A stretch of 64,000 bases of DNA from assembly GCA_002862205.1 (NCBI GenBank), contig PKCN01000312.1:1-64000 (forward strand), written 5' to 3'. Below the pieces are notes generated by a model. That model did no database searches and was not told the DNA's origin. It saw only the letters and a program-made list of their open reading frames with translations. Below are positions 695 through 61,961 of this stretch, piece after piece (position 1 is the stretch's first letter; every line of letters begins with the position of its first letter). The stretch comes from Planctomycetaceae bacterium (GTDB taxonomy: Bacteria > Planctomycetota > Planctomycetia > Pirellulales > Pirellulaceae). The position numbers and the translations under genes are program-made.

Positions 695-2428
695 CTAGAA
701 CTGACCGCCCTGCAAACCCTGCTGATTCTGCTGTACCGCGGCACCAATTGCTTGGAGGATACCTTCGCCGATTTCGAATGAGAACTTTTGACCGTTGTCA
801 ATTTTTTCGACGACGAGACTCATTTCACCGCCATTTGGTGCTCGTGTCAGTGCATCAAGCATGGCAGCGATGGTGTCGTTGGCTTCGATTGACTGGGCAT
901 AAGTAAGCATGGGCAGCATGGTCATGCGCATTTGACCAACAGGTCGATCAGCAGACGTCTTTGTCTTACCAGAGTCGATCAAGTCTTTCATTAACTTGTC
1001 ACTGTCTTTACCAAACGCCAAGTACATGGACTTTGCACCGGTGCCGATGTGGACGCGAAGTTTTTCGCCGAACATGCGGCGTGCTTCATCCGAGGACGCC
1101 GGGATATCAGCTTCAACCAAGTGCATGGTTACACCTTCATATTTGCCGATGTCGAATTTGAACTCGGGTGCACCAGGCTCATTTTCCACTTTGGCTGCGA
1201 CTTCCTTGGCGATTTTTGCCACTTCGTTTCCGTCCGCCACGAAGGCACCGAACACGAATTTGAAACCATCTTCGTCTGCCAGCAGTAACGCACCGAGATC
1301 ACTTTTTCCCTCTGAAGCAGATTTGACCGACAGTTCAATGACCCGATCAACCAAATCGTTGACGTCGTCACGTTGGCTGTCTGAAAGGCCAGCTTGGCTG
1401 TCCAGAGCAGAACGAACGGCTGACAATGATGCCTCCATGCTGGCTTTTGCGTCTTCAATTTGTTCCGGGCTGATAGAAGAGGCTTGATGGAAATAGGCAG
1501 CTGCACCTTCTCGGATGACGGAAGCAAATTGCGATGGGATCGCGCGGCTACCGTCGTACATGGACGCCAGCGTGCTGCCAGCAACCGCCGTGTAGCTGCT
1601 ATCAACTGTTATCTTTTGCTTGGCTTGGTTGATATTGAATCCAAACTGCAATTGATCGGTGTCTTCAATCAGTTGTTCAAGTTGCTTGATGGAGCTTTCG
1701 GCTGCTTCACGACTCGCTTCCGCATTGGGGCCGTCCTGCAGTGCCATCGCCTGCTCAAAGCCCATCTTGAGTTGATCTGTCAACATGTTACGTGTTTCAG
1801 CGGGAATCTGCTGCATTTTCATGCGTAGAGCCAGGTCGTATTTGTTCCCCATGCCCTCAAAGAGGGCGGTAGGATCTTCAGGAGCCAATGCCAGCACGTC
1901 TTTGGCAGTACCCATCACTGCCCAGTCACCCTTCTGTTGAATGTGAACCACATTGGCACCAACGATGATTCTCAGTGTGCCGTCTTTTTCTTCATCGTAT
2001 GGACCGGTCTGTGCTTCCAATCGCTTCAGCACAGTTTTGATGTCGTTGGTTGGTAACAGTACTAGTGGTTGAGGCATCCCATTCACCATCGGAACGACGA
2101 CGCCAATGGGGCGTGTCATATCCATGCCCTGAGTGAAAGTGCCTGCAAGCAGACCAAACATTCCGCCAGCTTGAGCTTGCCCGGCGACTCCGGTGACATA
2201 GTTAATGTCTTGTGTCAATTTGTTGACAGACCCGATGGTCATGACCAGAACTGGCTCGCTGGATGCAGCATCGCTGTCCTGAGCGGTTGCCAAGGGCAAG
2301 ATTGAGGTGGGAGCCGACAGTAGTAGCCCCACGGCCATCGCAGAGGCCAAAAAGCCGCGGCGAATCAAACGATTCGAGAACACCATTGTAAAAACCTTCC
2401 TCTGGGAAGCAGTGACCAGCGGAGCCAA
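695..2428 (-). CDS. secreted hypothetical protein (signal peptide; start may be internal at MVFSNRL)
   Basis: 577-aa ORF with hydrophobic N-terminus RRGFLASAMAVGLLLSAPTSILPLATAQ; no family recognised. Confidence 0.8.
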   Translation of the reverse strand: MAPLVTASQRKVFTMVFSNRLIRRGFLASAMAVGLLLSAPTSILPLATAQDSDAASSEPVLVMTIGSVNKLTQDINYVTGVAGQAQAGGMFGLLAGTFTQGMDMTRPIGVVVPMVNGMPQPLVLLPTNDIKTVLKRLEAQTGPYDEEKDGTLRIIVGANVVHIQQKGDWAVMGTAKDVLALAPEDPTALFEGMGNKYDLALRMKMQQIPAETRNMLTDQLKMGFEQAMALQDGPNAEASREAAESSIKQLEQLIEDTDQLQFGFNINQAKQKITVDSSYTAVAGSTLASMYDGSRAIPSQFASVIREGAAAYFHQASSISPEQIEDAKASMEASLSAVRSALDSQAGLSDSQRDDVNDLVDRVIELSVKSASEGKSDLGALLLADEDGFKFVFGAFVADGNEVAKIAKEVAAKVENEPGAPEFKFDIGKYEGVTMHLVEADIPASSDEARRMFGEKLRVHIGTGAKSMYLAFGKDSDKLMKDLIDSGKTKTSADRPVGQMRMTMLPMLTYAQSIEANDTIAAMLDALTRAPNGGEMSLVVEKIDNGQKFSFEIGEGILQAIGAAVQQNQQGLQGGQF

Positions 2429-2734
2429 GCGCCCGCCGGCGTATTGGAATTGGACAGACTAGGATTTCGAACACAGGAGCGGCGATTTGCAATCAAAACG
2501 AACTACAAAGACCGTTCGCCCCCAAGAGCTCGGTTACCTTTATATACCCTTGAACCGTTTCGACGGTTTCGGGCCTACTCTAAAAAAAGACAACTTTGAC
2601 TTGGCGGCAAGTTATCTACCTTCAGGCGCATTAAACCAGAACTGAGTGCAATAAGAGGTAAAAACCGAACTCATCAAGATTTTACCGGGATGTCGCTCAC
2701 ATCCTTTGCTCCCTCTCTGGAAGGGTCTGCTGTT

Positions 2735-2962
2735 CTATCTCTCTCGATAGACGATGCGACCCTTTGTGAGGTCGTAAGGCGAGAGTTCTACTCTCACCTT
2801 GTCACCGGGTACGATTCGGATGAAGTGTTTTCGCATTCGACCCGCAACGTGAGCCATCACTTCGCTGCCTGTTTCCAGTTGCACACGAAATCGCGTATTC
2901 GCCAATGCTTGCGTGACGGTTCCTTCGACTTCGAAGGCCTCTTCTTTATTTCCCAAAACCAA
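2735..2962 (-). CDS. infA: translation initiation factor IF-1
   Basis: 75 aa: [67 protein letters not shown], typical IF-1 S1 fold. Confidence 0.96.
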
Positions 2963-3109
2963 ACCTCAAATCAGGAATCGCTCTCGAAGGTGATACGAGA
3001 TTACCAGTCAACCGGTTGTATCGATGTTCGAGAGAGTGGCACTGACACTATTCACATCGGAATGGTCAAGCGAGAGCCACAAGTTCAACTATGAGCACAA
3101 AATGCGCTG

Positions 3110-3136
3110 CCCGCACGATGGTGCGGGACATTTTTT
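3110..3136 (+). terminator. stem-loop CCCGCAC-GATG-GTGCGGG followed by ACATTTTTT
   Basis: Perfect 7-bp stem at 3110-3116/3121-3127 with T6 at 3131-3136 on the + strand; lies in the rpsI-infA gap. Confidence 0.45.
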
Positions 3137-3139
3137 CCA

Positions 3140-3161
3140 TGTCACCCCCCGAGAGGTGACA
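3140..3161. other. second stem-loop TGTCACC...GGTGACA in the rpsI-infA gap
   Basis: Perfect 7-bp inverted repeat at 3140-3146/3155-3161, 8-nt loop. Confidence 0.5.
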
Positions 3162-3227
3162 CATTGATGTCCTCTAAAACCTTGGGCTCAAGCATCTCGG
3201 CGAGGCGATCAGGAAAACACAAACGAG

Positions 3228-3641
3228 TTATCGTTTGCTGAACTGGACGCCGCGACGAGCACCTCGAAGGCCAGGCTTCTTACGTTCTTTCATACGCGAA
3301 TCACGAGTCAGGAACCCGCCTTCGCGAAGCGTTTCATGCATTGTTTCGTCCAAGCTGACCAACGCCCGTGCCAGACCCATCCGAACGGCACCGCTTTGAC
3401 CGGTCATGCCCCCGCCTGAGACTCGAACCAAAACGTCGACCTGATCGGCTTTCTCGACGGCCGAAAGAGTCGCCACGATCGCAGCTTGGTGCTGGTCATT
3501 GACGAAATAGTCAGCCATTGGCTTACGGTTGACGGTGATCGTTCCACTTCCGGGGCGTACACGTACACGAGCTACGCTACTTTTTCGTCGGCCTGTGCCG
3601 AGTGCATCTCCGGAAATCTTGTCCTTTTTGACGGCGACCAT
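3228..3641 (-). CDS. rpsI: 30S ribosomal protein S9
   Basis: GTGRRKSSVARVRVRPGSGTITVNRKPMADYF...VSGGGMTGQSGAVRMGLARAL...LTRDSRMKERKKPGLRGARRGVQFSKR. Confidence 0.98.
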   Translation of the reverse strand: MVAVKKDKISGDALGTGRRKSSVARVRVRPGSGTITVNRKPMADYFVNDQHQAAIVATLSAVEKADQVDVLVRVSGGGMTGQSGAVRMGLARALVSLDETMHETLREGGFLTRDSRMKERKKPGLRGARRGVQFSKR

Positions 3642-3699
3642 AGGTTCAAATGCTGCTTAGGGGGTGTGTTGATGGGAGTACGTTTCGCAAGTCTCTCGA

Positions 3700-4152
3700 T
3701 TACGAGATTTTCTTGCCAGTTCGCTGAAGGGTTTCAGGCTGTTGTGCGGTGTGCGGGTGATCAGGGCCCGCGTAGATCTTCAATTTCTTGATCATCTGAT
3801 ACGCCAACTTGTTCTTCGGGAGCATCCGACGAACTGCGTGGTAGATCAAATCTTCCGGCTTACGTTCTTTCCTGTCGCCGTAACTCTCGAGCCGAAGTCC
3901 GGGGTAGCCGGTGTACCAGGTGTAGTGTCGGTCATCCATTTTCTTGCCGGTCATTCCGACTTTTTCTGCGTTCACGACGATGACAAAGTCGCCGCAATCA
4001 ACATGGGGCGTGTAGATGGGACGATGCTTACCCATCAGGACGACAGCGATATCACTTGCAAGTCGACCGAGGATTTCGTCGGATGCGTCGACGACATGCC
4101 ACTGTTGTTCGACTTGGCCTGGTTTGGCCATGGTTGTTGGTTGAGCCACCAC
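3700..4152 (-). CDS. rplM: 50S ribosomal protein L13
   Basis: WHVVDASDEILGRLASDIAVVLMGKHRPIYTPHVDCGDFVIVVNAEKV...AVRRMLPKNKL. Confidence 0.98.
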   Translation of the reverse strand: MVAQPTTMAKPGQVEQQWHVVDASDEILGRLASDIAVVLMGKHRPIYTPHVDCGDFVIVVNAEKVGMTGKKMDDRHYTWYTGYPGLRLESYGDRKERKPEDLIYHAVRRMLPKNKLAYQMIKKLKIYAGPDHPHTAQQPETLQRTGKKIS

Positions 4153-4376
4153 GGAATTGACTTATGGTTTGAATGGATCGAAATCGAAAACCGCCAAAAA
4201 CGGCAGAATGCCGGAGTGCGGGGAATCGAGGAATTTATCGAGCGTCGCCTTGCTGGGCAAGGCCTTTCGAGCCGATTCAGCATGAAAACGGCTCCAGATT
4301 CGTGTTCCGGGCCAAATTTTTTGCCTGAATGGCCCGGTGAGCTGCCATTGGAACGGTTTCACCCCATTTTTGGGAA

Positions 4377-5852
4377 TCACAAGAGTCGGTCAGGTCCGAA
4401 ACGCTCGACATACTTTTTCAGGCGTAGTTTCTTGCTTGCGGATTCACTCGTCATGTATCTCACGCTGCCGAAAATTGGGCGTTTTGGGCCCCAAGCACGG
4501 TCATACCGCCCCAACACCCAGAAGATTCCGTTGTACGAGTTGGGATCCCGACCATCGAGTCCATACTTGTTATTCAACTCGATCATGATCGAGAGTGCCT
4601 GCTGCGGCGATTCGGTCCAGTGCAGAATTTTCTTTCCCCAGAGCATCCGCATGTAGTTGTGCATCACACCGGTCTCCACCAGCTCGCGTTGTGCAGCATT
4701 CCAGAGCGGGTCCGCTGTCCTGGCGTTCTCGAATTCCTCCAACGTGTAAACGTAGGGACGCTCGTCCTGGGCATGCTCATCGAGCGTTTTTTGAGCCCAA
4801 TTGGGCAGAGACTCAAACTTGTCATAGTTGTGCGGTTGCCTGAAGCTGAGGTTGAAACCCATTTCACGCCAAGTCAGCACTTGGTCGAGAAATGCCTCCG
4901 CTGGTTCGCTTGTGTTCCAAAACCCGTGGTTCTTTCCGTTGGCAGGCGAAGCTTGATCAGGCGTCCAGTTTTCCTTTTCGAGCATTTTTTGAACGATTTC
5001 ATGTGCAGAGATATGACCGAAATGAAGGTGTGGGCTGAGGCCTGTTGTGACCTTTTCGTCTGGATGGTTGCGGTCATCTCCGTAGAGCGACAGGTCACGA
5101 TTGACAAACTGATCGAGCCGCGATTTGGCATCCAATGAACCACCAGCGACCGTGTTGCTGATCTTGACCCCATGGTCAATCGGAAGGCTCGTGATTCCGC
5201 CCCCATCCAGCAGGTAATTCAGGTCCGCTGGTGACCATTTCTCCAGAATCTTTCTGGGCAATGCATCGAGGCGAGGAAGTTTGATTCCCCGGAGAGGATC
5301 CACTTTTGGCATTTCCATCAGATTGTCTAGGATGTTTTTTTGCATCCAACGTCGATAACTGTGGGCTACTGTGAAGGTGCGTTCGGGCGCGCGAAGTGGC
5401 ATCACCCCATTACTGTCCACCAACTCCAGTCTTGCCGGCAGGCGATTCCGTGCTACACGGATCATCGTGGGGTGAAAGAAGCAGGGGTACTCGTCCGTCA
5501 CAATCGTGCAAGCTCTTGATGCCAATTCATGTAGTAAAGGCGATGCGCTCCCCACCTCCGTTTCAACGAACGGAAAGTACGTGACGGCTCGCTTGGCGAA
5601 AGAGTTCTGGTTGTCTCGCATCCCCTCGATCACGAATCGGTGGAGCCGATCGCTGGCCCAGCGATAGCGTAGACGCAATGGTTCAAAAACAATCAATGGC
5701 TTGCCGAACTGCCGAGATCGATCGATCGCGTGCTGCAGAGCAAAATTGTAGTTGAGCCGTCGAAAGGCCGTCATCCAATAAAGAACGTAGTCGCCATCCT
5801 CCCGTATCGGATGGTCATTGGCGTGCGTATGCCGTATCGAAGGAATCGCCAT
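4377..5852 (-). CDS. class II deoxyribodipyrimidine photolyase
   Basis: YVLYWMTAFRRLNYNFALQHAI...LSPHLHFGHIS...FLDQVLTWREMGFN...YMRMLWGKKILHW...WVLGRYDRAWGPKRPIFGSVRYM, class II photolyase motifs. Confidence 0.93.
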   Translation of the reverse strand: MAIPSIRHTHANDHPIREDGDYVLYWMTAFRRLNYNFALQHAIDRSRQFGKPLIVFEPLRLRYRWASDRLHRFVIEGMRDNQNSFAKRAVTYFPFVETEVGSASPLLHELASRACTIVTDEYPCFFHPTMIRVARNRLPARLELVDSNGVMPLRAPERTFTVAHSYRRWMQKNILDNLMEMPKVDPLRGIKLPRLDALPRKILEKWSPADLNYLLDGGGITSLPIDHGVKISNTVAGGSLDAKSRLDQFVNRDLSLYGDDRNHPDEKVTTGLSPHLHFGHISAHEIVQKMLEKENWTPDQASPANGKNHGFWNTSEPAEAFLDQVLTWREMGFNLSFRQPHNYDKFESLPNWAQKTLDEHAQDERPYVYTLEEFENARTADPLWNAAQRELVETGVMHNYMRMLWGKKILHWTESPQQALSIMIELNNKYGLDGRDPNSYNGIFWVLGRYDRAWGPKRPIFGSVRYMTSESASKKLRLKKYVERFGPDRLL

Positions 5853-6207
5853 CAGTCATTCAGATCAGGTGAGTGTTGAGTTGAAAGTGGCACTGAACCC
5901 ATTTTTTGAGCCCTGACTCAGACAGCACCGGTTGAGTCAGTTTCGTGCCGGACAATCACTGGAGCGGTATTTGTTACTGGTGATCTGAAGAAGGATAATC
6001 TTGATAACAAGCTCGATCAGACATCAGCAAACGCAGGGAACATTTCAGCGCTTGAGGGAATTGTACTGAACGGGGTAGCCACCCTCGCACTCCATTGGGC
6101 GGGATTGAGTGGCCAGTGAATTAAGCAGCCAGTGGTGTCGTTTTTTCCAGCGGCCGGTCGGCTTGGTCGTGACCGCTTGGTTGTGTCTGGCTGCGGTCAA
6201 CTGAGGG

Positions 6208-6275
6208 CTTCAGATGAAACGGGGCTTCAGATGAAACGGGGCCTCAGATGAAACGGGGCCTCAGATGAAACGGGG
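6208..6275. repeat. 4 x 17-bp tandem repeat (C[T/C]TCAGATGAAACGGGG)
   Basis: Four contiguous near-identical 17-mers read directly from the sequence. Confidence 0.95.
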
Positions 6276-6305
6276 CTCGGCTATTGGGATGACTCTCTGC
6301 GATTT

Positions 6306-7235
6306 TCATTCGTCACTGTCATTGGATTCTTCGCCGTTGCCTGTCACTTTCCGTTTACGCATGCGAATTTCATTTCCGACCTCATTATGGCTGACTTCAT
6401 CCATGAAGGCGTTGATCAGTAATAATCCACGGCCACCGGCACGTTCGATATTTTCCGGATCGGTGGGGTCACGTAATGCTGCAGCGTCAAACCCAGGACC
6501 ATCATCGCGGATGATGAAGATAATTTCTTCGCTAGTTGCTTCCAGCTTGATCGTGACTTTTCGATCACGATAGGGAGCTCGCTCTTTTCGTTCCGCAATC
6601 ATGTTGACGTAAGGCGTTCCGTTATCGCTTTGTCGCAGTTCCGAGGAAACTTCGAGATTTCCATGAATCATCGCATTCAAGAGGGCTTCATCCAAAGCCA
6701 TGGCGATCTGCATTCTTTCGCCTTCATCGAACAGGTCGAGTTCGACCATCGGCAATTCGAGTCTCGAAATGATATCCGGAATTTGAGATTCATCGTTCGC
6801 GACTTCCAGCGTGATGTTGCTTTCCACCGCATTTTGGGCAACCTGTGGGACAGCTTTGGTAGCTTTGTTGACCGCCATCACCTGCTGAAGCACTGGAATC
6901 AGGGTGTCGTTAAGTTCTCGTTTGGGCACGTAGCTCGCCGCACCTGCTTTTAGTGCCTGACTCGCAATTTCTTCGCTGCCTTGACTGGTCGTGAGGATGA
7001 CAGGAAGCGATGGCATCGACTCTTTGAGTGAGGCAACCAATTCCAGACCATTCATCTCGGGCATCTGCAAATCAGTGACGACCAGCAGTGGCATTGTCTC
7101 TTCGATGGAAGCAATTGCTTGAATGCCATCCATGGCGGATTGGACGACGAAACCCTCTTTCTCGAGCAAGAACTGAATTTGCCGGAGTTGTGTTGGACTG
7201 TCGTCCACGACGAGGATGTGCGAAGGGTCAGGCAT
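6306..7235 (-). CDS. response regulator with C-terminal RsbW-like HATPase domain
   Basis: Receiver ILVVDDSPTQLRQI...VVTDLQMPEMNGLELV...; C-terminal EALLNAMIHGNLE...IIFIIRDDGPGFD...GGRGLLLINAFMDEV = anti-sigma-kinase type HATPase. Confidence 0.88.
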   Translation of the reverse strand: MPDPSHILVVDDSPTQLRQIQFLLEKEGFVVQSAMDGIQAIASIEETMPLLVVTDLQMPEMNGLELVASLKESMPSLPVILTTSQGSEEIASQALKAGAASYVPKRELNDTLIPVLQQVMAVNKATKAVPQVAQNAVESNITLEVANDESQIPDIISRLELPMVELDLFDEGERMQIAMALDEALLNAMIHGNLEVSSELRQSDNGTPYVNMIAERKERAPYRDRKVTIKLEATSEEIIFIIRDDGPGFDAAALRDPTDPENIERAGGRGLLLINAFMDEVSHNEVGNEIRMRKRKVTGNGEESNDSDE

Positions 7236-7900
7236 AAGTTTTTAATCAGTCGGCGTCGATCGCTTCAGACTCATTGTCTTGTAAGTTCGTTCAATGCGAT
7301 TGGGATATGGGAGTGCTGTTGGCCGGGCCCACTAACCCAAGGAGGTATCGGTGATGTTGGCAATAATCCTTCATGTCCTCATCTCCGGGATGGATTTTCG
7401 GCAAATATAACTGGTTGAAACTCGGGTTTTGGCGTCTGTTCCCAAAGAACGTCGGTAGGGCTGCAAGGACTCGCCCGATATCACCAGTTACGACTGTATT
7501 GTGGATTCCCATTGACGAATGCGACAGTGGGCAGTTTGTGACGGTTAGTGAGCGTTGTGCGGCCGATGTTGGGGGGGCTTCGACGGGGTTCATCGTCCGT
7601 CTAGCACCAATCCGTTCACTAGTCTAGCTTCTGAGTTGGACTTGTGTGTTGAAATGCCGGGCCGGAACTTCCACAAGCTTTCAAATCAGTACGTGAACGC
7701 TGCAATCACAGACAGCTTCATCTGTAGTAGGATGCTGGTTTGCCATGCCAACGCTGATGTTTGTCCCGGTCACAGTCTATGCTGTGTGATTCCCGTCGCT
7801 GTGAGCGAGTTGTTTTCTCGCTACTGGCTGTTTTTGATCGAAAGTTATTTACGGATTTGGGGGGCGATCTTCGCTCCGGAATACTACCGAGAAATCAGCA

Positions 7901-58803: not shown

Positions 58804-59664
58804 CTACAAGATGTCAGCCAAACCATGCTGGTAGGTTGGAAAATACAGGTTGGAGACCAGATCGCGTTTCATTCTGCGGTTCCAGACCCGTTTATTACTC
58901 TCCGATCTTATACTTACCGAAGAACCGGCTTCTGCCGTCACAAATTGTGGTTTTTCTGATCCGGTTTGCCGGGCAATTTCCTCGTAAAACTGTGATCGCA
59001 CAATGGGGCGGTCATCGCTCACGACGTAAAGACGCTGGGTGCGTTTGCGGAAAACGGAGTCAACAGCCTGAGCCGCATCTTCCACATGAATCAGATTCAG
59101 AAACCCCTCTCTTGGCGAAGCGATGGGCCTTCCGGCGATGATATTGGCTGCCCGAGGAATGCGACCGGGGCCGTAGATGCCTGATAGTCGCAGGATTGTC
59201 CATTCCGATTCGGGACGCATTTGGTTCAATAATGCTTCCGCCATCAAGTGGGCACGCCCACCATCACGGTGGGGCCTTGTTGGGCTCGTTTCATCCACCC
59301 AAACGCCATTTTGTTGATGGTAAACACCGGTGGTGCTGATGTAGCAGATCTTCGTTTTCGGACTGATTACTTGGAGTAGGTTGCGCAGGCCACCAACTTG
59401 GGAGTCAAAGCGATTATGAGAACTGTGCCGGTCGTAGCTGACGCATATCACGATCTGTTTGACGTCAGGAAGGTTTGCCAGCGTTCGCCTGTCGGTCCAA
59501 TCAGCGACAATCGGATGAGTTCCTTCAGTGGCAAGTTGCTCCTGCCTTTGGGGGCGACGAGTGGTTGCATAAACCTTGTCTCCGTTACGAATTGCCTGTT
59601 GCGCTACCCGACGACCGAGGTAGCCGTAGCCAAAAATCATGGTTTGAACCGAAACATCGCTCAT
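58804..59664 (-). CDS. NAD-dependent epimerase/dehydratase (extended SDR-like)
   Basis: TMIFGYGYLGRRVAQQAIRNGDKVYATTR...ICYISTTGVYHQQNG...WTILRLSGIYGPGR...FLNLIHVEDAAQAV. Confidence 0.92.
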   Translation of the reverse strand: MSDVSVQTMIFGYGYLGRRVAQQAIRNGDKVYATTRRPQRQEQLATEGTHPIVADWTDRRTLANLPDVKQIVICVSYDRHSSHNRFDSQVGGLRNLLQVISPKTKICYISTTGVYHQQNGVWVDETSPTRPHRDGGRAHLMAEALLNQMRPESEWTILRLSGIYGPGRIPRAANIIAGRPIASPREGFLNLIHVEDAAQAVDSVFRKRTQRLYVVSDDRPIVRSQFYEEIARQTGSEKPQFVTAEAGSSVSIRSESNKRVWNRRMKRDLVSNLYFPTYQHGLADIL

Positions 59665-59716: not shown

Positions 59717-60883
59717 GTGGTTATAATGAAACGTGTGCCTGAGGAAAGGTACGTGATCGCTAACTCCGCGTCGCGATTCGAGGCTGCTTTGAATATTTAC
59801 AACTTGAAATTATCCGTCTGCGGCAAACAGGTTTTGCGTGCCGTAGTGGTTGTCTTTCTGCTCTTTGGCTTTTCCGTCGTCGCCCAGAGACTGCAAGCCC
59901 AGCCTCCTTCGCTGGCAAAGGCGAGCGTGGCGGACCCGCCCAGTGGCACAATGGTTCCAGTGCCCAGCGAACTTCAGGGGATTTTTACTTTCGGCAAAGT
60001 ACCGCAATCCCTTGACCAGTTGAGGTTACTTGAACAGCAGTTCGGGCGGGTGTCTGAGGCAGCGAAGCTTTGCACTGTGAGCGTCAAGATTGGGCAGTCG
60101 CAGGGTTGTGGCGTGATCATTGATGGCGGCGGCAAGGTGCTCACTGCTGCCCATGTGGCGATGAGGCCCAACAAACCTGCCACTGTCATCCTTGCCAATG
60201 GGCGGCGTCTGAAAGCGACGACGCTTGGCTCGAATAAAAATGTCGATGCGGGCATGTTGCAGATCAACCCAGACCAAAACGAGGGAGAGGATTGGCCACA
60301 CGCTACGCTAGGCAGCAGTGACAAGCTGACCAACGGTATGTGGTGTATCGCAACGGGTCACCCAAGTGGTTTTGATCAGAAGCGAGGCGTCGTGACTCGT
60401 GTGGGGCGTATTTCCAGAGTCAACCGCGCCGCGTTGCGAACTGATTGTGCCTTGATTGGTGGTGACAGCGGAGGTCCTTTGTTCGATTTGTCCGGCCAAC
60501 TGATCGCGATTCACAGTCGGATTGGAAACGACGTCGAAGAGAATTTACACATCCCGATTGATAACTACAGCAAGTCGTGGGAACGTCTTGTTGCAGGTGA
60601 TTTCTGGGGTTCACTACCAGGATTTCGTCCTGTGCTTGGAGTGCAGGGAAAAACCGGTGAAGGGAAGGCTGTGATCAAGACCGTTCGGGCCGGTTCTGCG
60701 GCCTTGAAGGCAGGGATTAAGGAAGGGGACATCATCCAGAAGTTTGGAGATCGACAGATTTCAGATTTCCAGTCATTGAGGGAGGCCGTTGGGGAGACGA
60801 TGCCGGGTGAGAATGTTCGCGTGCAGGCTTTTCGTGAAGGATCCATCGTCTTTTTCCGGGTGGTGATCGGGCGGGGCGAGTAA
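59717..60883 (+). CDS. trypsin-like S1C serine protease with PDZ domain (active-site residues present)
   Basis: GCGVIIDGGGKVLTAAHVAM; NVDAGMLQI; IGGDSGGPLFDLSGQLIAIHSRIG; C-terminal PDZ SAALKAGIKEGDIIQKFGDRQISDFQSLREAV; start may be internal. Confidence 0.9.
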   Translation: MVIMKRVPEERYVIANSASRFEAALNIYNLKLSVCGKQVLRAVVVVFLLFGFSVVAQRLQAQPPSLAKASVADPPSGTMVPVPSELQGIFTFGKVPQSLDQLRLLEQQFGRVSEAAKLCTVSVKIGQSQGCGVIIDGGGKVLTAAHVAMRPNKPATVILANGRRLKATTLGSNKNVDAGMLQINPDQNEGEDWPHATLGSSDKLTNGMWCIATGHPSGFDQKRGVVTRVGRISRVNRAALRTDCALIGGDSGGPLFDLSGQLIAIHSRIGNDVEENLHIPIDNYSKSWERLVAGDFWGSLPGFRPVLGVQGKTGEGKAVIKTVRAGSAALKAGIKEGDIIQKFGDRQISDFQSLREAVGETMPGENVRVQAFREGSIVFFRVVIGRGE

Positions 60884-60932: not shown

Positions 60933-61961
60933 ATGGTGAATTGCAACATGCGATCTTACGCGAAGAAATTTCTGTTTGGTGCCATGGCAATGATGTTGGC
61001 AGCCGAAGCGAATCCATCGCGGGCACAGTTTGCAACTCTCGCACGTCGCGACAATGCATCCATGATGCAGTTGGTTCAGCCGATCGCTGAGAAAATTTCC
61101 GGGTCCGTTGTGCAGGTTTACAGCGGTGATCGCCCGGTCGCTCTGGGAACCATTGTCGCTGAGGATGGATTCATTTTAACGAAGCGGAGTGAATTAAGTG
61201 GCGATCCGATCCGCGTTCGTCTGAGTGATGGACAACTCTTGCCCGCACGTGTTGCTGCTGTGCGGCGAAGTAATGATCTGGCAATGTTAAAGATCGATAG
61301 TGATATCACGGTGAAGCCTGCTGAGTTCGCAGGTGAAGCACCACCGGTGGCGAGCTTTGTGATCAGTGTGGGGCGGAAGTCCAAGCCGATAGGATTGGGT
61401 GTGATTGGTGCCGAACCGCGGCGAGTTTCTCACATGGGGCGACTGGGCGTGTATTTGGCGAAGGGCCGACTAGAAGCACTGGTACGTCGTGTATTTAAAC
61501 ACAGTGGGGCTGAGGAAGCCGGTTTGAAAGAAGGGGATCTGATTGTTGCGATTAATGGCAAACCCGAAGGTACTCGTCTGGGTGTCATGGCAACGCTTCG
61601 CGGGATGTTTCCGGGAGAGAGCGTTCGCCTGACGATCACTCGGGATGATCCTGTCAAAGAATCCACTACGATGGATGTTGATGCTTTCATTCGTGACATG
61701 ACCGTGATAGGAGAGTCCGAGAGCGATGCGCGAGTTAACGGGCCGAGAAATGTACGCTTGTCTGGTTTCGATCAGGTCATGCAGCACGATACTGTGCTGG
61801 ACCCTGATGAATGTGGTGGGCCTTTGCTGGACACGCGAGGAAATGTGATCGGGATCAATATCGCCCGCGCTGGACGCGTTGTGAGTTATGCTCTGCCCGC
61901 TTCGTTGATTCTGCCTGAGATGGTTAGCATGCTTGCTGAAGCGCGTGCCGCCAACCGCTGA
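60933..61961 (+). CDS. S1C protease-like protein with degenerate catalytic residues and PDZ domain inside the protease fold
   Basis: VVQVYSGDRPVALGTIVAEDGFILTKRSELSGDPIRVRLSDGQ...RSNDLAMLKID; PDZ AEEAGLKEGDLIVAINGKPEGTRLGVMATLRGMFPGESVRLTITRD; then DPDECGGPLLDTRGNVIGINIARAGRVVSYALP. Confidence 0.85.
   Translation: MVNCNMRSYAKKFLFGAMAMMLAAEANPSRAQFATLARRDNASMMQLVQPIAEKISGSVVQVYSGDRPVALGTIVAEDGFILTKRSELSGDPIRVRLSDGQLLPARVAAVRRSNDLAMLKIDSDITVKPAEFAGEAPPVASFVISVGRKSKPIGLGVIGAEPRRVSHMGRLGVYLAKGRLEALVRRVFKHSGAEEAGLKEGDLIVAINGKPEGTRLGVMATLRGMFPGESVRLTITRDDPVKESTTMDVDAFIRDMTVIGESESDARVNGPRNVRLSGFDQVMQHDTVLDPDECGGPLLDTRGNVIGINIARAGRVVSYALPASLILPEMVSMLAEARAANR

Follow-up and report, generated by a model that had tools for sequence, protein, structure and literature searches.

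We identified, in a planctomycete genome, a protein that by sequence and profile alignment has the fold of an HtrA (S1C) protease without a usable catalytic triad, and in which the PDZ domain sits in loop L3 of the second barrel. This protein, here called pseudo-HtrA, is likely to be an exported, non-catalytic subunit dedicated to the HtrA protease whose gene lies just upstream, for which it would probably have a built-in regulatory or scaffolding role. In HtrA proteases, a textbook case of allosteric enzymes, the PDZ domain is C-terminal and signals via loop L3 to the active site. A review of DegS and DegP describes L3 as the relay from the PDZ domain to the active site and places Arg178 and Gln191 of DegS, and Arg187 and Gln200 of DegP, in the activation cluster (PMC11642142). 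The window, that is, the whole stretch of 64,000 nucleotides that was analysed, belongs to a genome of 7.8 Mb, to which Rhodopirellula and Rubripirellula metagenome-assembled genomes are the closest relatives that have a name. It contains the following features of the pair:

59717..60883, + strand: partner protease (P0002), GTG start, 388 aa; intact HtrA with His146, Asp177, Ser251 and a C-terminal PDZ (Pfam)
60933..61961, + strand: pseudo-HtrA gene (P0001), ATG start, 342 aa, predicted exported (open reading frame list; orthologues share the start region)
60933..61025, + strand: predicted signal peptide, residues 1-31, ending ...KKFLFGAMAMMLAAEANPSRAQ (judged by eye; the hydrophobic stretch is weak)
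61065..61427, + strand: first protease segment, residues 45-165, comprising barrel 1 and the first strands of barrel 2 (Pfam Trypsin_2, PDB HtrA alignment, profile alignment)
61176..61196, + strand: LTKRSEL at the TAAH site (homologue alignment)
61275..61277, + strand: Asp115, at the Asp102 position (144/144 homologues)
61419..61421, + strand: Arg163, aligned with the loop-L3 sensor Arg, DegP R187 / DegS R178 (PDB alignment)
61434..61682, + strand: PDZ inserted in loop L3, residues 168-250, with the carboxylate loop LGV kept (Pfam, PDB alignment)
61740..61937, + strand: second protease segment, residues 270-335, the remainder of barrel 2 (PDB and profile alignments)
61782..61790, + strand: Gln284-His285-Asp286, where HtrA has QTD (homologue alignment)
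61806..61823, + strand: DECGGP in place of GDSGGP, with Cys294 at the Ser195 position (homologue alignment)

A gap of 49 nt separates the partner from the pseudo-HtrA gene downstream, and with the flanking genes on the opposite strand the two resemble a two-gene unit; a promoter and terminator scan around the pair gave a signal no higher than in shuffles. As the first-pass annotation had read it, the partner is intact: it carries TAAHV, NVDAG and GGDSGGPL, and Pfam finds an unbroken Trypsin_2 domain (residues 130-265) followed by a C-terminal PDZ_2 (305-379). Among its homologues, the catalytic His is present in 129 of 130 non-gap sequences and the Ser in 122/122, with GDSGG kept, and the L3 Arg is retained in 119/122. 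The partner start at 59717 is uncertain: the GTG is followed 9 nt further in by an ATG, and for some orthologues the alignment begins only at about residue 77. At the position of the activation-cluster Gln, the partner (window 60029-60868) and its homologues have Gln in 23/122 sequences, against 115/135 in pseudo-HtrA. An epimerase-like gene (window 58804-59664, - strand), divergently transcribed, recurs beside the pair at 19 loci, together with other housekeeping-type genes.

In pseudo-HtrA, Pfam matches are limited to Trypsin_2 and PDZ models, with Trypsin_2 split in two by PDZ_2 (residues 169-244), and the chain terminates within barrel 2. Alignment to HtrA chains in the PDB pairs query residues 74-175 with chain 63-162 and 271-324 with 157-215, and the two protease halves meet within loop L3 of the HtrA chain (...SALGRSGL/NLEGLEN...); query residues 181-248 pair with 257-325, a PDZ domain that is C-terminal in the PDB chains. 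For the family profile A1 against the DegP-like 22kg, profile positions 33-134 correspond to chain 94-199, 248-301 to 206-264 and 137-225 to 270-370, and the profile matches PDB DegP, DegQ and DegS down to E 2.6e-44, as befits an S1C-type chymotrypsin fold. Around Arg163, GVVSVKPRE aligns with GIVSAKGRS, and the PDZ begins right behind this residue. With the PDZ cut out, the pseudo-HtrA barrel aligns to the partner family at 99.4% probability (hhalign profile alignment). The first-pass annotation had put the PDZ after the first barrel and ahead of DECGGPL rather than C-terminal to the protease. This order is right; the alignment of profile A1 to the PDB refines it, in that the insertion falls within barrel 2, at loop L3, and not between the barrels.

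Pseudo-HtrA thus shares with DegS, DegP and DegQ (HtrA, MEROPS S1C) the fold, the L3 Arg and activation-cluster Gln positions, and the PDZ family, but whereas those enzymes have an intact triad and a C-terminal PDZ, here only the Asp of the His-Asp-Ser triad is retained and the PDZ lies within L3, with barrel 2 resuming behind it. We found no dedicated Pfam or NCBIfam model for the protein; the best NCBIfam match, TIGR02037, scores 82 bits where the cut-off is 416, and the other curated Do/DegP/DegS models also score below their cut-offs. AlphaFold with a shallow alignment of 8 sequences gave a mean pLDDT of 43.4 and a pTM of 0.31. Since a control model of the ordinary partner, built from an alignment of the same depth, scored about as low (mean pLDDT 44.5), this low score is due to alignment depth and not to pseudo-HtrA itself.

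The loss of the old catalytic site is a family trait. The motif readings proposed from the window were confirmed in the 60933-61961 reading frame, where ILTKRSEL stands for TAAH, DPDECGGPL for GDSGGPL, and NDLAML keeps Asp115. The His57 position is taken by Ser86, the Ser195 position by Cys294, and Gly193-Asp194 by Asp-Glu. The ortholog alignment that had been suggested as a check found these substitutions conserved: position 57 holds Ser in 138 and Thr in 6 non-redundant homologues and His in none (n = 144), and counts of His at position 57 and Ser at position 195 came to 0 of about 136 and 0 of about 135 non-redundant homologues, which together with the PDB alignment sustains the idea of an S1C fold stripped of its catalytic residues. 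At position 195, the 135 homologues have Cys (122), Met (4), Ile (3), Gln (2), Val (2), Thr (1) or Leu (1). The oxyanion Gly is lost in nearly all of them, with charged or polar residues instead. These comparisons support a non-catalytic pseudo-HtrA. Other residues are nearly or fully fixed, namely Lys84 (144/144), Asp115 (144/144), His285 (138/143), Asp286 (142/143), Arg312 (139/143), Arg315 (140/143) and, in the PDZ, Gly172 (137/137), part of the intact Leu171-Gly172 carboxylate loop. Arg163 is Arg in 105/118 non-gap homologues, and Gln284, aligned with the activation-cluster Gln200 of DegP, is Gln at the frequency given above; folding alone could be sufficient reason for the conservation of these two residues.

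Such conservation at a former active site could also signal new chemistry. Cys294, or a Ser86/Lys84 pair with Asp115 and His285, might form a re-built catalytic site, so that the pair would be two proteases of different chemistry, and besides the invariance of Lys84 and Asp115 one can cite the Ser or Thr at position 86 in 144/144 homologues and a Cys294 that is invariant among 57 family sequences. The invariant polar Lys84, Ser86, Asp115 and His285 exceed the needs of a plain scaffold and to that extent count against our main reading; our guess is that they form a buried charge network. The divergent Cys enzyme that had been offered as an option in the first-pass annotation is, however, disfavoured: Cys294 is replaced in 13/135 homologues while its neighbouring residues stay fixed, and the deep members have Met, Ile, Val or Gln there, which makes Cys catalysis unlikely. 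With no His at position 57 and the oxyanion Gly gone as well, we regard a re-built enzyme as an unlikely account, although a Ser/Lys site could exist. MamO of magnetotactic bacteria, whose HtrA barrel has become a metal binder (PMC4794232), sets a precedent for a different use of the conserved Cys, His, Lys and Asp cluster, and the His-Asp-Cys set at the old active site would suit a pseudoprotease that binds a metal or another ligand. Yet the Cys is not universal, the surface di-His of MamO (H148, H263) lies at other positions, and the conserved neighbourhood of the pair yielded no functional clue, with no metal-handling gene recurring beside it; we hold this alternative to be improbable.

The linkage data support our main reading, a dedicated subunit. 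Among 146 non-redundant open reading frames with the split-protease/PDZ arrangement, 41 have an intact HtrA of the partner subfamily fused in front of them and 97 lie directly downstream of such an HtrA; 7 are unlinked (L165-L171) and 1 (L142) lies at the edge of its contig. Where no partner is nearby, these 7 are the truly unlinked copies, and the others are duplicates or contig-edge cases. The window's genome has the two-gene pair and a fused paralogue side by side. This 644-aa paralogue (L002; G000:C105, about 5825-7645) joins an intact HtrA to a divergent pseudo-HtrA with an L3 PDZ, and fused paralogues like it accompany the two-gene pair in other genera of the family. Parsimony puts the changes between the fused and the adjacent state on the barrel tree at 14 or more, a loose number given that many forks of the tree are weak; at least 2 of them are required by well-supported (starred) branches.

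The association also persists where linkage is lost. On the barrel tree the unlinked copies, from genera g39 and g154, fall into two groups that stand apart from each other. Of 8 genomes of these genera that were checked, 7 encode the partner subfamily at another place (G038, G128, G139, G113, G384, G496, G552); in G384, a genome on a single contig, megabases separate the two genes. The sole exception among the eight is G088, a 480-contig assembly in which the partner was not found. Across 197 genomes of the order, called present at score gaps (E <= 1e-45 for pseudo-HtrA, E <= 1e-55 for the partner), 95 have both genes, 98 neither, 4 pseudo-HtrA only, two of these being 65-70% complete, and 0 the partner only. 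The two-humped score distribution was known when these cut-offs were chosen, and the genomes are non-independent, so that shared ancestry inflates any p-value; our argument therefore rests on the pattern and the cases of lost linkage. Adjacency and fusion, repeated fusion and fission, and a co-occurrence that survives loss of linkage bear out the suggested pairing with the active protease, and on these comparisons a near-obligate partnership with one active HtrA subfamily is well supported.

These distributions bear on two further explanations. Pseudo-HtrA could be a stand-alone periplasmic PDZ adaptor or chaperone that feeds several proteases, its linkage to the partner reflecting shared regulation only; the PDZ groove motif (Leu171, Gly172) is intact and PDZ adaptors are common. 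The 41 non-redundant fusions with a single HtrA subfamily, the lack of any partner-only genome in the sample of the order and the retention of the partner in 7 of the 8 genomes checked where linkage is lost all speak against this explanation, to which we assign a low probability. That the gene is an ordinary decayed copy might be suggested by its missing catalytic residues, and is ruled out, to the point of deserving next to no credence, by an open frame, a dN/dS of about 0.08 against orthologues of about 78% identity, and a match in 196 of 199 sampled genomes of the family (E <= 1e-15). The partner gives a dN/dS of 0.09-0.13 (dS near saturation), and pseudo-HtrA is no higher; purifying selection on pseudo-HtrA is as strong as on its partner. 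Within Planctomycetota, the range of our survey (about 145 non-redundant copies of pseudo-HtrA), other families of the order have full-length members too, as do the class and scattered families across the phylum, and the same arrangement and substitutions recur in about 144 non-redundant homologues. A search of genome contigs with the single protein as query found only 7 close orthologues, and no relatives were found on viral contigs.

A dedicated non-catalytic subunit would not be without parallel. MamO promotes MamE-dependent proteolysis without catalysis, and binds metal (PMC4794232). MamE and MamO are an active and a dead HtrA that act together; in the planctomycete pair a dead S1C domain has an active HtrA as its near-obligate genetic partner, and may act on it. 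Unlike pseudo-HtrA, MamO keeps its His and Asp and has Thr as nucleophile, and no PDZ domain is mentioned for it in that study (PMC4794232); physical contact between MamE and MamO went undetected, whereas the planctomycete proteins are fused in 41 non-redundant cases. Plant Deg7 has the order PD-PDZ-PDZ-PDia-PDZ-PDZ, and the inactive domain of AtDeg7 is reportedly involved in trimerization (PMC3473262). One chain with an active and then a degenerate protease domain is what the 41 fused homologues, including L002, also show; in contrast to Deg7, the window's pseudo-HtrA gene is separate from that of the active protease, and its PDZ lies inside L3 rather than behind a protease domain. Yeast Nma111/Ynm3 resembles plant Deg7. 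A PDZ inserted within a protease domain is known from the CTP proteases Prc and CtpB (S41), which have an unrelated fold and are catalytically active (PMC6686036). Dead HtrA partners and a PDZ inside the CTP fold are thus already known; an HtrA barrel with a PDZ in its loop L3, and the planctomycete pair itself, appear to be new, as we found no description of either in the open-access PMC literature.

MamO/MamE and the dead domain of plant Deg7 provide precedents for the two halves of a mechanism that we propose for the pair. Pseudo-HtrA and its partner would form a mixed oligomer, in which the L3-borne PDZ, with an apparently intact groove, may capture the C-termini of misfolded or signal proteins, and the pseudo-barrel, with Arg163 and Gln284, would relay a signal to the partner's active site or hold it in place. 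The net effect could be activation, inhibition or assembly. More tentatively, and with our confidence in the whole switch reading staying on the doubtful side, Planctomycetota may have a two-part HtrA: the sensor would have moved into a dead sister subunit whose L3 PDZ senses peptides and whose retained activation-cluster residues switch the paired active HtrA, so that sensing and cutting are split over two chains. If so, evolution has repeatedly fused and separated the sensing and cutting chains. The pair is a natural test case for what signalling, as opposed to cutting, requires of the HtrA barrel, and the proposed subunit role gives a testable function to a widespread protein. Here, the PDZ is in L3 of a catalytically dead partner and has been retained there across much of the phylum. 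Some pseudo-HtrA barrels have several PDZ domains in tandem in L3, with two in L146 and L148 and four in L164 (ORF 1444-4881).
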